A stretch of 64,000 nt of DNA. Source: Sphaerisporangium sp. TRM90804 (GTDB lineage: Bacteria; Actinomycetota; Actinomycetes; Streptosporangiales; Streptosporangiaceae). The position numbers and the translations under genes are program-made. Below the pieces are notes generated by a model. That model was not told where the DNA came from. It ran no database searches and saw only the letters and a program-made list of their open reading frames with translations. Position 1 is the stretch's first letter. Every line of letters starts with the position of its first letter. Shown here in pieces: positions 38,219-42,557 of this stretch. The stretch spans positions 62,001 through 126,000 of the forward strand of contig NZ_JARWAC010000026.1 in assembly GCF_029846175.1 (NCBI RefSeq). Reading direction: 5' to 3'.

Positions 38219-41014
38219 ATGTCGGCCACCGACTTTCAGGCGATCGGACCGGCGATGAGACGTGGTGCGGGTTCCTCACAGTCAGACGCCTACGACGTAT
38301 TCATCTCCTACAGCCATCGCCGGGACACCGGGCTGGCGGAGGCGTTGCAGTCGGAGCTGCAACGTTTCGCCTGTCCCTGGTACCGACCGAGGGTGCTGCG
38401 CGTCTTCCGCGACAAGACGAGCCTTTCGGCCAGCCCCTTCTTATGGCCCATGATCGAGCAGGCCCTCGGCGTGTCCGGCTGGTTCGTGCTCATGGCGTCC
38501 ACGGCTTCCGCGCAGTCCCCGTGGGTGCGGAAGGAGGTGGACTGGTGGGTGGCCAACCGGTCCCCGGAGCGCATGCTGATCGCCCTCACCGAGGGGACGA
38601 TCACGTGGGCGGGAGACGACTTCGACTGGCGCCGCACCGATGCGATCCCTCCATCCTTGTCAGGGGTCTTCGCCCACGAACCGCTCTGGATCGATCTGCG
38701 CGCACTGCGGCCGCCGGAGGATCCGGGGACGACGCCCGAGCGTCCCCGGTTGGGCGACATCGTGGCGGAGTTCGCCGCTCCCGTGCACGGGGTGCCGAAG
38801 GATTCGCTGGTCGGGGAGCACGTCCGGCGCCGGCGACAGACCAAGCGGGTGATCCGGCAGGTGGTCGCCCTGCTCGCCACGCTGGCGCTCATCGCGTCGA
38901 TCGCCGCCGTGGTGGCCTTCGCGCAGCGCGACGAGGCGATCCGGCAGGCCACGATCGCCACGGCCGGGCGGGCCGGCGCCGAGGCCGAGGCCCTGCTGCC
39001 CAGGCAGGTGGACGTCGCGCAGCTCGTGGCCGTGGAGGCGTATCGCATGTGGCCGGACGCGCAGACGCGGTCGGCGCTGTTCGGCGCGGTGACGGCGAGC
39101 CCGGCGCTCGTGCGGCACCTGCAGGCCGGTGGTCGCGTCTCGGCCGTCGGCGGTTCCATGGACGGGCGGACCGTCGTCGCGGGGACGCACGACGGGCGGG
39201 TGCTGCGCTGGCGGGCGGCGGACGGGGCCAGGACGGCGTCCTTCGAGCTGGCGAAGGCGGTCAGGAGCGTCACCGCCGACCGCACGGGCCGGGTCGTGGC
39301 CGCCACCGACGGCACCTCGGTGCTGACCGAGCCTCCCGGACGTCTCCCGAAGACGTGGGGCGGGGCCATCGGGGGCCTCGCCCTGTCGCCGTCCGGGCGG
39401 TTCCTGGTCGTGGCCGCCGGAGACAGGCTGACGAGGGTCGAGCTCGCGACGGGCGCGCTACGCGCCACACGCACCCTCGTCACGGCCCTCTCGGTGGCGA
39501 TGCCCGACGAGACGAAGATCGTGGTGAGCAGCGTGAGCGGGCAGTGGGAGCACTACACCGGCGCGGACCTGCGGCGCGGTCTCAGCTCGCTCCACTCACC
39601 CATGGGCGTGCACGGTTATGCCCCCACGCTCGCGAACAACGGCGCCTACCTCACCTTCACCCGCACCTTCGGCGGGCCCCTGCCGATCTACCCCACCAGC
39701 GTCGCGTTGTCGATCGCGGACGACTCCGCGCCGCAGGAGGCGCTCTCCCACGGCACCTCACCCCAGGCGATCGCCGTCAGCGACGACGGCGTCCACGCGG
39801 CGGTGGCCGACGGGAGCGCGATCTACGTGTCCTCCGTCGAGGCCGGTGTCGAGCAGACCACCCTTCCCGGCAGCGGTGTGGTGATCGACGGAGGACTGCG
39901 TTTCCTCGGCGACCGTGACCATCTCGTGTCGGCGTCCGGGCAGTCCGTCGCGCTGTGGGACCTGGATCACGCGGGACGCATCGCGCAACAGGCGGAGGTG
40001 CGCCTGACGGGGGCGTGCAGCGGATGCGGTGCGCCGCACACCGAGGTGAGCGCCGACGGCAAGCGCGTGGCCGTGCAGACCGACGGGTCGGCGGGCCTCT
40101 TCTCCGTGTACGACTGGGGCCGGCGGACCGGCGACGTCTTCGAGGCGGCCCGGCGGATTCTCGGGTGGAGCGCCGACGGCTCCGGGCTCTTCCTGGCCAA
40201 CACCGAGAACCGCCTCGAAACGCTCAGCATGCGCGACTCCAGCCGGGCCATGCGGCACACCACCGGGGAGCTGCCGCTCGAGCCGATCGCCGTGTCCAGG
40301 GACGGGCGGGATCTGCTGATCCTCGACACGGCCGGGGCGCTGGAGGTCCGCGCGGCCTCGACCGGGTCGCTTCGCCGCCGGATCGAACCCCCGGAAGGGC
40401 TGGATGCGGTGCTCCTGCCGGTCGTCGACTTCCAGCGGGGGATCGTCGTGGCCGAAGGCCTCGTCGAGTTCGCGTCACACGCCGTTCTCTACGACCTCAC
40501 CTCGGGAAAGAGCCGCATCGTGGGGTCCGGGCGCGCGCAGAACATCTCCGTGGGAGCCGGGCACGTCGTCGTCCAGCGTCGCGACGGCGACCTCGAGTTC
40601 TGGGACCGGTCGGGCACCCGACTGGAGCGCAGGATCACTCGCGACGCGAGCTTCAGCCCCGACGAGTTGTCCCCGCGAAGCATCCCGGCCGTCGGCGCCG
40701 CTTCGCTCGTCCAGCGTACTTCCGACGGCGTGATCGTGATCACCGACCTGACCACGAGAACCGACGTGGGCACCCTGCGACTGCCCGGCGAATGGGTCCA
40801 GGCCAAGACCTCGATGAGGCTCACCGACGACGGAACACACCTCGTCACCGCCGCGGACGCCGGCGGCGAGAACGGGTTGCTCGTCCGCTGGGCCCTGACC
40901 CCGTCCGCCTGGATCTCAGCCGCCTGCGCCTCCGTCGGACGGGATCTCACCGCCGCCGAATGGCGCCGCTACGTGGGCACCCCGCCCCCCGAGAACCTGT
41001 CCTGCGCCCGGTGA
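38219..41014 (+). CDS. TIR domain - transmembrane - beta-propeller protein
   Basis: 931 aa. A TIR domain (about 22-165) opens with YDVFISYSHRRD; the NADase-type glutamate is present in SPWVRKEVDWW (E106), matching the WVxKE of catalytic TIR domains. A basic stretch and one transmembrane helix (about 212-236) follow, then a repeat-rich region (about 290-890) of strand-forming WD40-like units (DGRTVVAGTHDGRVLRWRAADG, SADGKRVAVQTDG). The C-terminus (ISAACASVGRDLTAAEWRRYVG) is the cap seen on propellers of bacterial NLR-like and caspase-like proteins. It may sense a signal through the propeller and act through the cytoplasmic TIR. The start lacks a clear ribosome site; ATG 38255 is an alternative. 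Upstream DNA (38050-38218) is AT-richer. Confidence 0.88.
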   Translation: MSATDFQAIGPAMRRGAGSSQSDAYDVFISYSHRRDTGLAEALQSELQRFACPWYRPRVLRVFRDKTSLSASPFLWPMIEQALGVSGWFVLMASTASAQSPWVRKEVDWWVANRSPERMLIALTEGTITWAGDDFDWRRTDAIPPSLSGVFAHEPLWIDLRALRPPEDPGTTPERPRLGDIVAEFAAPVHGVPKDSLVGEHVRRRRQTKRVIRQVVALLATLALIASIAAVVAFAQRDEAIRQATIATAGRAGAEAEALLPRQVDVAQLVAVEAYRMWPDAQTRSALFGAVTASPALVRHLQAGGRVSAVGGSMDGRTVVAGTHDGRVLRWRAADGARTASFELAKAVRSVTADRTGRVVAATDGTSVLTEPPGRLPKTWGGAIGGLALSPSGRFLVVAAGDRLTRVELATGALRATRTLVTALSVAMPDETKIVVSSVSGQWEHYTGADLRRGLSSLHSPMGVHGYAPTLANNGAYLTFTRTFGGPLPIYPTSVALSIADDSAPQEALSHGTSPQAIAVSDDGVHAAVADGSAIYVSSVEAGVEQTTLPGSGVVIDGGLRFLGDRDHLVSASGQSVALWDLDHAGRIAQQAEVRLTGACSGCGAPHTEVSADGKRVAVQTDGSAGLFSVYDWGRRTGDVFEAARRILGWSADGSGLFLANTENRLETLSMRDSSRAMRHTTGELPLEPIAVSRDGRDLLILDTAGALEVRAASTGSLRRRIEPPEGLDAVLLPVVDFQRGIVVAEGLVEFASHAVLYDLTSGKSRIVGSGRAQNISVGAGHVVVQRRDGDLEFWDRSGTRLERRITRDASFSPDELSPRSIPAVGAASLVQRTSDGVIVITDLTTRTDVGTLRLPGEWVQAKTSMRLTDDGTHLVTAADAGGENGLLVRWALTPSAWISAACASVGRDLTAAEWRRYVGTPPPENLSCAR

Positions 41015-41120: not shown

Positions 41121-41735
41121 TCAGCGTGAGTAGTGCTCGACGACGAGCTGCTCGTCGACGGGGATCGCGACCTGCGCGCGCTCGGGCCGGGAGACCAGCG
41201 TGAACCGCAGCTCGTCGAGGTTCACGTCGAGATAGGGCGCGGTGATCTCGTCGGCGTAGGTGCCCTCGGCCGCCGCCACGAACGGCTGCGCCTGGCGCGA
41301 CCTGGGGCGCACGGCGACGGTCTGCCCCGGCTTGACGAGGTAGCTGGGAATGTCCACCTTGCGGCCGTCGACGGTGATGTGCCCGTGGTTGACGTACTGG
41401 CGGGCGGCGTAGATGGACGGGGCCAGCCCGGCCCGCAGCACGAGCGAGGCCAGGCGGCTCTCCAGCAGGCTGACCAGCTCGGCGCCCGAGCGTCCGGGCC
41501 GGCGCACCGCCAGGTCCCAGTACCGCCTCATCTGCCGCTCCGAGACGTCGTAGTACCAGCGCAGCTTCTGCTTCTCCATCCGCCGCAGGCTGTAGTCGCC
41601 GGCGGCGCGGCGGTTGGTCTTGCGGCCGTGCTCGCCGGGCGGGTAGGGCCGGTTCTCGAAGTAGCGGACGGCCTTGCGGGTGAGCGGCACACCCGCCCTC
41701 CTGGAAAGTCGCACCTTCGGTCCGGTGTAGCGCAT
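41121..41735 (-). CDS. rpsD: ribosomal protein S4 paralogue, cysteine-free
   Basis: 204 aa with the S4 N-terminal domain (YTGPKVRLSRRAG, PYPPGEHGRK) and the S4 RNA-binding domain (LESRLASLVLRAG, ARQYVNHGHITVDGRKVDIPSY), ending VDEQLVVEHYSR. The N-terminal region that carries four zinc-ligand cysteines in the C+ form of S4 has none here, so this is a zinc-independent copy. It stands alone, not in the rpsM-rpsK-rpsD-rpoA operon, so it is probably a second, conditionally expressed copy. ATG 41735 follows GTGGAG. Upstream lies an iron-box-like operator rather than a Zur box. Confidence 0.92.
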   Translation of the reverse strand: MRYTGPKVRLSRRAGVPLTRKAVRYFENRPYPPGEHGRKTNRRAAGDYSLRRMEKQKLRWYYDVSERQMRRYWDLAVRRPGRSGAELVSLLESRLASLVLRAGLAPSIYAARQYVNHGHITVDGRKVDIPSYLVKPGQTVAVRPRSRQAQPFVAAAEGTYADEITAPYLDVNLDELRFTLVSRPERAQVAIPVDEQLVVEHYSR

Positions 41736-41757
41736 GGCGTTCTCCACGTGGTTAGCT

Positions 41758-41785
41758 TTACCTTAGTTAGGTAAGCCTAACCTAT
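41758..41785. promoter_or_regulatory. IdeR/DmdR-type iron box between S4 paralogue and DUF2470 gene
   Basis: TTAGGTAAGCCTAACCTAT (41767-41785) matches 18 of 19 positions of the DtxR/IdeR consensus TWAGGTWAGSCTWACCTWA. It overlaps a second near-palindrome, TTACCTTAGTTAGGTAA (41758-41774), so two dimers could bind. It lies 23-40 bp from the S4 start and 32-59 bp from the DUF2470 start, a position suited to repress both when iron is plentiful. Confidence 0.85.
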
Positions 41786-41816
41786 ATTGACGATGCGACG
41801 ACGAGGAGCCCCGGCC

Positions 41817-42557
41817 ATGCACGTGACCGTCCCACCGATCACCGAACGAGTCCGCAGCCTCGCCGCCACGGCGGTCCCCACCCATGTCTCCCTTGACGGC
41901 TCGGCCCACGCGGCCAGGGGCGGGGTGGACGACGCCGGGCGCCCGCTGCTGCTGGTCAAGCCGGGCGACCCCCTGCACGGCGTGCCGGACGCCGACGACG
42001 TGGTGGTCACCGTCGACCTCGCCGCCTGCCGCACCCTCGGCGGCGCCGACCAGGCGCGCGGCCTGCTGAAGGTGCACGGGTGGGCGCAGGCCGTGCCGCG
42101 TGAGCTGGTGCGCGAGGCGGCCGTGGCGGTGGCCGGCCGGTGCCCGGACGAGGCGCTCTTCGCCGCCGTGGAGGGCGGCCCGGCCGGTTCGCGCCTGTTC
42201 CGGGTGGACGTGGGCTACGTGATCTACCTGACCGGCCAGGAGTCGGGCATGCTGGACGCCGAGGACTACCTCGGCGCCGGGCCCGACCCGCTGCTGGACG
42301 CCGCCGAGCGCATGCTGGGCCACGTCAACGAGTCCCACCGCGACCAGCTCCAGCACGCCATGCGCGTCCTGCTCGGCCACCCGGTGCCCGACGTCTGGCT
42401 GTGGGAGCTCGACCGCTACGGGGCGACCGTCCGCTCGGGGATCGAGGACCCCACGCTCATCCGCCTGCCGTGGCCGTCGCCGGTCGACGGCCCGGCCGAG
42501 CTGGAGCGGGCCCTGGCCTGCCTGCTGTGCCCGCACGGGAGCGCGCCGGGCGCCTGA
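41817..42557 (+). CDS. DUF2470 domain protein (HugZ/heme-utilisation-like)
   Basis: 246 aa. The C-terminal third has the DUF2470 signature (HVNESHRDQLQHAMRVLLG, then VWLWELDRYGATVRSG). The N-terminal part looks like a split-barrel flavin-reductase-like domain (HAARGGVDDAGRPLLLVKPGDPLHG) of the pyridoxamine-oxidase/HugZ type. Such proteins are linked to heme or iron use. ATG 41817 follows GAGGAG. The iron box just upstream implies induction under iron starvation. Confidence 0.87.
   Translation: MHVTVPPITERVRSLAATAVPTHVSLDGSAHAARGGVDDAGRPLLLVKPGDPLHGVPDADDVVVTVDLAACRTLGGADQARGLLKVHGWAQAVPRELVREAAVAVAGRCPDEALFAAVEGGPAGSRLFRVDVGYVIYLTGQESGMLDAEDYLGAGPDPLLDAAERMLGHVNESHRDQLQHAMRVLLGHPVPDVWLWELDRYGATVRSGIEDPTLIRLPWPSPVDGPAELERALACLLCPHGSAPGA

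Follow-up and report, generated by a model that had tools for sequence, protein, structure and literature searches.

Why a spare, cysteine-free gene for ribosomal protein S4 (uS4) should share a predicted iron box with a divergent DUF2470 gene is the question raised by one locus of the window, the 64,000-nucleotide stretch of DNA analysed here, and the features concerned are collected in Table 1. The 19-mer at 41767-41785, TTAGGTAAGCCTAACCTAT, lies midway between the divergent starts 41735 and 41817, exactly between the two genes as the preliminary description had placed it. The S4 gene is more likely to start at ATG 41735, which has GGAG upstream, than at GTG 41747, and the likely start of the DUF2470 gene is ATG 41817. 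Scored against TTAGGTTAGGCTAACCTAA, which we take to be the iron-box consensus, TTAGGTAAGCCTAACCTAT matches in 16/19 positions on the given strand and in 17/19 on the opposite strand. With the degenerate palindrome TWAGGTWAGSCTWACCTWA, likewise our assumed form of the iron box, the match is 18/19, which reproduces the value claimed previously. A second palindrome, described before as overlapping the box, is indeed present with a score of 13/19, and is here separated from it by one base. No other 19-mer in the 64-kb window exceeds 13/19, leaving the iron box alone there, and none of 5,000 dinucleotide shuffles of the box's own upstream region reached 17. A chance match or an AT-rich artefact was rejected on the window scan and these shuffles together with the whole-genome scan and the background counts given below. 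On the other side of the S4 gene, a gene at 38219-41014 (+) encodes a 931-aa protein with a TIR_2 domain at its N-terminus and WD40-like repeats, these scoring below the Pfam cut-off, at its C-terminus; some 100 bases separate the end of this gene from the S4 stop, and its TIR-repeat architecture is as in some signalling/defence proteins.

Table 1. Positions in the window of the divergent S4 and DUF2470 genes and of the palindromes between them.
Feature	Position	Strand	Remark
Cysteine-free (C-) stand-alone uS4 paralogue, 204 aa from ATG 41735	41121..41735	-	Longer GTG frame to 41747
Weaker second palindrome, 13/19	41747..41765		Lies toward S4, one base off the iron box
IdeR/DmdR-type iron box (predicted)	41767..41785		About 31 bases from either start codon
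Split-barrel + DUF2470 (DRI) heme-protein relative, divergent gene, 246 aa from ATG 41817	41817..42557	+	

The box belongs to a class of sites that marks iron genes elsewhere in the same genome. Allowing up to 3 mismatches, the box pattern gave 24 strand matches at 12-13 places in the 8.3-Mb genome, and the same pattern read backward as a control gave 1 match in the whole genome; a match with a single mismatch occurs at three places, 41767-41785 being one. Five of the ten other box regions adjoin genes named by Pfam as FecCD, Ferritin, siderophore-interacting protein, Lys/Orn oxygenase and FTR1. The remaining five have ABC exporter, sucrase/ferredoxin-like, ATP-grasp and winged-helix regulator genes, one of these regions being without a recognised gene. 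An IdeR/DtxR-type repressor was found as one match in the genome, and the locus consequently has what marks a member of an IdeR/DmdR regulon, namely a box near the start codon, a site class that marks iron genes and a cognate regulator. A weak iron box of the same genome (L194, C25:96820) stands beside a winged-helix regulator gene which by eye is of the SufR type, and a link between IdeR and Suf is possible there.

The S4 encoded in the window is a full-length uS4 (TIGR01017 202.2 bits with a cut-off of 177.2; NF003717 227 bits) without Cys in its first 45 residues, in keeping with the stand-alone cysteine-free S4 gene first described. It shares 46% identity with the genome's main S4, which sits in the order S13-S11-S4-rpoA and carries C9, C12, C26 and C31, thereby settling an earlier suggestion to look for metal-ligand cysteines in the main rpsD. 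These four cysteines align one to one with those of T. thermophilus uS4; in the window paralogue they and the intervening loop are lost and the core uS4 residues are retained. A Cys4 main copy in the ribosomal operon and a Cys-less paralogue elsewhere make up a C+/C- pair, the C+ form of uS4 being defined as CXXC-CXXXXC (PMC10450194). The T. thermophilus cysteines are reported to hold Fe4S4, not zinc (PMC10450194, PMC6555806), with long-wavelength X-ray data confirming the cluster (PMC6555806), and the main copy here has the CXXC-CXXXXC motif at the T. thermophilus cluster positions. By analogy, actinobacterial C+ uS4 would carry a [4Fe-4S] cluster; the documented cluster is that of a thermophile's uS4, and zinc might take its place in actinobacteria. 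The S4 cysteines, earlier assigned to zinc, are thus more probably ligands of an Fe-S cluster, the uS4 motif binding Fe4S4 according to the same two reports (PMC10450194, PMC6555806). Control by iron had looked odd in the preliminary description because the cysteines were taken as zinc ligands, and is to be expected because the motif binds Fe4S4.

The strength of a zinc-based explanation was gauged with a single 15-base pattern, presumably representative of Zur sites. At the S4 locus no Zur-like site was found, the best score against the pattern being 8/15, and none of the 95 two-copy C- upstreams described below scored above 10/15. Allowing up to 2 mismatches in the whole genome, the pattern occurs at one place, with 13/15, before a Pfam-confirmed znuA gene. 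The upstream region accordingly has no Zur box of the one pattern scored, such as a member of the Zur regulon would have, and Zur control was rejected by this score (8/15 here vs 13/15 at znuA). A zinc-sparing C+/C- pair under Zur, as for S14, S18, L28, L31, L33 and L36, draws on the long-standing name of Zn finger for the uS4 motif and on the treatment of S4 as zinc-binding by Chen, Roberts and Luthey-Schulten in 2009; in 26 genomes the same study saw no Zur site close to an S4 paralogue, and it left their regulation open (PMC3087516). With these site counts and with Fe4S4 found in uS4 (PMC10450194, PMC6555806), Zur control is highly improbable. Control by iron rather than zinc, as first proposed, is supported by the class of the box, by its conservation, by the genes that adjoin other boxes of this genome and by the failure to find a Zur-like site here.

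The locus is thus likely an IdeR/DmdR-controlled swap of an Fe-S uS4 for a cluster-free uS4, that is, an iron-sparing switch. When iron is sufficient, Fe(II)-IdeR/DmdR on the (double) box would repress both divergent genes, and ribosomes would use the main alpha-operon uS4 with C9xxC12...C26xxxxC31 carrying [4Fe-4S]. When iron is short, the repressor would leave, and the cluster-free uS4 would be made and enter new 30S subunits; by its taking over, ribosome assembly would become independent of the Fe-S supply and iron would be spared. The DUF2470/split-barrel protein may handle heme, either by degrading it for iron or in heme-dependent control. The gene pair, the box and its conservation, the cysteine pattern and the box neighbours are read from the genomes themselves, and the binding of IdeR, the direction of control and the incorporation of C- uS4 into ribosomes are what we infer.

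Conservation of the box was scored as a match of at least 14/19 within 150 bases upstream of the C- start. A search of 120 genomes of the same family gave 40 with a close C- copy and C+, 13 with a distant C- copy and C+, and 28 with C- only, leaving out G009 and G047 with two S4 matches each. The 345 genomes of the class gave 25 two-copy genomes outside the family, leaving out G120 and G396 (two matches), and 15 sole-C- controls were hand-picked from the same list. Named loci were the best 80 of at least 592 stretches, these 80 being Actinomycetota by title; copy number was tested for 50 of these 80, and the other 30 (27 without box, 3 with box) stand outside that test. The box was found before the two-copy C- genes in 40/40 close relatives, 10/13 divergent ones, 25/25 from other families and 17/17 named loci (from the best 80 of at least 592 stretches). 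Together this is 92/95 two-copy C- genes vs 0/55 C+ genes, for which the best score is 11/19. The 95 leave out G524, G508 and three genomes of family f75, which are treated below; the box is missing in L074, L076 and L077. C9, C12, C26 and C31 are present in all 55 C+ copies examined. Two-copy genera among the best 80 of at least 592 stretches are Blastococcus, Geodermatophilus, Actinocorallia, Dactylosporangium, Micromonospora, Actinomadura and Streptomyces. L205 and L083 apparently come from a single genome, and distinct proteins were therefore also counted; with identical proteins removed, the box is found in 91/94 two-copy C- genes. Two further two-copy loci of the same family, L094 and L095, outside the 95, have a box of 16/19 each. 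Background in the same loci never reached 14/19 (0/686,790 positions, 0/4,446 windows) and shuffled upstreams did so in 3/4,040 cases. An independent-pairs test of the box vs the presence of C+, with 4 pairs on supported branches, was not significant.

Most of the 40 close relatives have two overlapping boxes, and a column-by-column comparison puts these among the most conserved intergenic segments; such a double box suggests two repressor dimers. The preliminary description had pointed to other Streptosporangiales as the place to look for the same S4/DUF2470 pair, and it recurs there, these 40 close two-copy relatives having the DUF2470 gene in 39 cases by tblastn. The same search found a divergent DUF2470 gene in 8/13 distant sets, in 12/25 outside the family and in 13/17 named two-copy loci (from the best 80 of at least 592 stretches). 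Seven further upstream ORFs, six of them missed by tblastn, gave a Pfam DUF2470 match at E up to 0.1 in 3/7. In family f14, the divergent S4 partners (upstream ORFs of L121, L127 and L129) have no Pfam match, and in a profile comparison with the DUF2470 partner alignment the L121 ORF matches weakly (hhalign 93%).

The partner protein in the window has a C-terminal DUF2470, and its structure model (pLDDT 94.7) resembles At3g03890/HOZ with TM up to 0.77, the glutamyl-tRNA reductase-binding protein (GBP) with TM 0.66-0.67 and MSMEG_6519 with TM 0.60-0.65. All three are described as split-barrel + DUF2470 proteins (PMC11014987), and the partner has the split barrel followed by DUF2470 that marks the HugZ/HOZ/DRI heme proteins. 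The gene had been called DUF2470/HugZ-like from the start, and both the DUF2470 match and the closeness of the model to the heme-binding HOZ, MSMEG_6519 and GBP bear this out. The mycobacterial DUF2470 gene Rv3839 is reported to be IdeR-dependent (PMC13258150), and with the heme-binding structural relatives this makes the link with heme use, also drawn before, a fair one. In S. griseus a DUF2470 gene with a DmdR1-like motif is a predicted iron target (PMC8914203).

That DUF2470 genes are iron targets elsewhere, as in Rv3839 (PMC13258150) and the S. griseus prediction (PMC8914203), is also what would be seen if the box served the DUF2470 gene only and S4 merely shared the intergenic region with iron-independent expression. 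Genomes with a sole S4 often keep the box beside DUF2470, by tblastn in 12/33 named sole loci (among the best 80 of at least 592 stretches), which points the same way. Placement of the box argues for S4 as a target: in 40/40 close relatives the best box starts 35-85 bases before the S4 start, mostly at -50, and the second copy is usually nearer S4. At L132 an 18/19 box lies 52 bases from S4 and no divergent ORF of at least 90 aa starts within about 550 bases, at L321 a palindrome stands directly before S4, and none of the 55 C+ copies has a box. With an S4 paralogue of Planobispora rosea rising together with iron genes (PMC8269224), a box for the DUF2470 gene only is unlikely.

In P. rosea fermentation, 56 of 64 ribosomal genes changed, and EV45_RS15600, an S4 paralogue with 45% identity to the core copy, was the only ribosomal gene with the opposite trend (PMC8269224). 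It peaks at 39 h in a cluster with most iron and phosphate transport genes, and biomass was raised by iron feeding and by phosphate feeding, each, both being limiting (PMC8269224); this double limitation counts against the profile as evidence for iron in particular. The likeness to the present case is that of a Streptosporangiaceae S4 paralogue rising with iron transporters; it differs in that the available text of that report has no 'iron box' wording or Fe-S link and proposes that EV45_RS15600 is neofunctionalised and outside the active ribosome (PMC8269224).

Roles outside the ribosome are known for S4 proteins. An S4 duplicate that has been neofunctionalised and is no longer built into ribosomes, as the P. 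rosea authors see it, would agree with the opposite expression trend and the 45% identity (PMC8269224). The protein itself argues otherwise, since it retains the core residues and the scores of a uS4 equivalog, and other genera have as their sole S4 an orthologue from the same strongly supported clade. Among the 28 same-family genomes with C- only, 8 were rechecked and none of the 8 has an S4 besides the C- orthologue; these sole-S4 orthologues fall in the same strongly supported clade as the window-type paralogue. Because the orthologue is the only S4 elsewhere, the C- clade makes working ribosomal proteins and replacement of the main copy is feasible, and the neofunctionalised reading of EV45_RS15600 is doubted for the same reason. 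The non-ribosomal duplicate, weakened by the sole-S4 orthologues, is quite unlikely.

What counts against the iron-sparing swap is that the box is often kept where the C- copy stands alone. A score of at least 14/19 was found in 17/28 same-family sole-C- genomes, the remaining 11 scoring 12-13, in 4/15 sole-C- class controls and in 19/33 named sole-C- loci (from the best 80 of at least 592 stretches). L107-L110 and L113, sole-C- loci of the same family outside the 28, score 13/19 each. The complete chromosome of S. lavendulae has one S4 match in the genome, which is C- and has kept a canonical box. L216 and other sole-S4 Streptomyces loci likewise have a canonical iron box, 41 bases from the start of the only S4. 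An essential sole S4 is not iron-silenceable, and the box therefore need not mean tight repression; as sole-C- genomes must make S4 in iron-rich medium, repression would be weak or bypassed there, or the box a relic or for DUF2470.

A cysteine-free S4 may have arisen a second time in another class. A search of the phylum covered 248 genomes, of which 211 were outside the class, and 5 of those had two S4 matches. In three f75 genomes the C- S4 keeps the C+ insert and is missing three or all four of the cysteines; in the tree it falls inside the C+ clade (100/99), adjoining the C+ copies from these genomes (90/83). An AU test with all C- forms as one clade gave p-AU 0.066, by which a single origin is not rejected; the case for an independent origin is made by the retained insert and the tree support (100/99, 90/83), not by the AU test. 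The palindrome TTAGGGTKACCTAA occurs in 2/3 of the f75 C- upstreams, starting 72 and 17 bases before the start, and one of the three copies is without a box. At L321 only 3 bases separate the end of the palindrome from the predicted start, too few for a ribosome-binding site of the usual kind. With at most 1 mismatch, TTAGGGTKACCTAA was found at 9 places in the three f75 genomes including the two S4 sites, and the reversed control at 0. The other sites adjoin a DtxR-family repressor gene, PNPOx-DUF2470, FeoB, a phosphopantetheinyl transferase and ABC transporters, and judged by these neighbour genes TTAGGGTKACCTAA is probably the iron box of the f75 lineage. The other two of the five genomes add no support. 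G508, of another class, has a C- S4 copy without a box. G524 has two 3-cysteine S4 copies, also without a box; among the G508 and G524 upstreams one ended at a contig edge. The two G524 copies, L318 and L320, are alike in 158/200 positions and have their three cysteines in a shortened N-terminal motif.

Among known systems, the Zur-controlled S14, S18, L28, L31, L33 and L36 are alike in having a Cys4 main copy, a metal-free paralogue outside the main operon and a metal-sensing repressor; unlike them, the present case would concern iron as an Fe-S cluster, with an IdeR/DmdR-type box, uS4 and a heme-related partner. The C+/C-(IV) S4 pairs of Chen et al., which include the Actinobacteria Salinispora and Frankia, share the C+ copy in the alpha operon and the C- copy outside, but were read as zinc, and the word 'iron' does not occur in that main text (PMC3087516). 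IdeR/DmdR/DtxR regulons with Rv3839 share the box class and the heme-domain gene, but the available text on Rv3839 has no ribosomal partner and 0 occurrences of 'ribosomal' (PMC13258150). A 2004 list of operons predicted to be under DtxR in C. diphtheriae includes rpsD as part of the entire alpha operon, which unlike here is the alpha-operon copy and not a spare S4 (PMC524172). No proposal of iron control of an S4 paralogue was found in the open-access literature, seen mostly at listing level. Metal-sparing ribosomal paralogues are known for zinc, and for the proposed iron/Fe-S version the comparative case is strong.

On balance we favour, with more reserve than for the locus itself, a widespread uS4 switch from Fe-S to cluster-free form that evolved at least twice under DtxR-family control, ribosome composition reporting iron status; loss of the Fe-S copy would have left many Streptomyces with a permanently iron-free uS4, the old box often being kept. 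If true, this would lend physiological meaning to the Fe-S cluster of uS4, answer why there are S4 paralogues without Zur sites, as left open in 2009, and account for the odd P. rosea expression. Many actinomycetes would then change ribosome composition on iron exhaustion, and decoding accuracy and antibiotic production under iron limitation could possibly be affected.

Outside Actinomycetota two matches were inspected, on Comamonas and Pseudoalteromonas plasmids, and both are stretches of ribosomal operon. The plasmid records, NZ_CP083452 and NZ_CP099945, hold the part of the ribosomal operon around rpsD and could be misfiled chromosome pieces.
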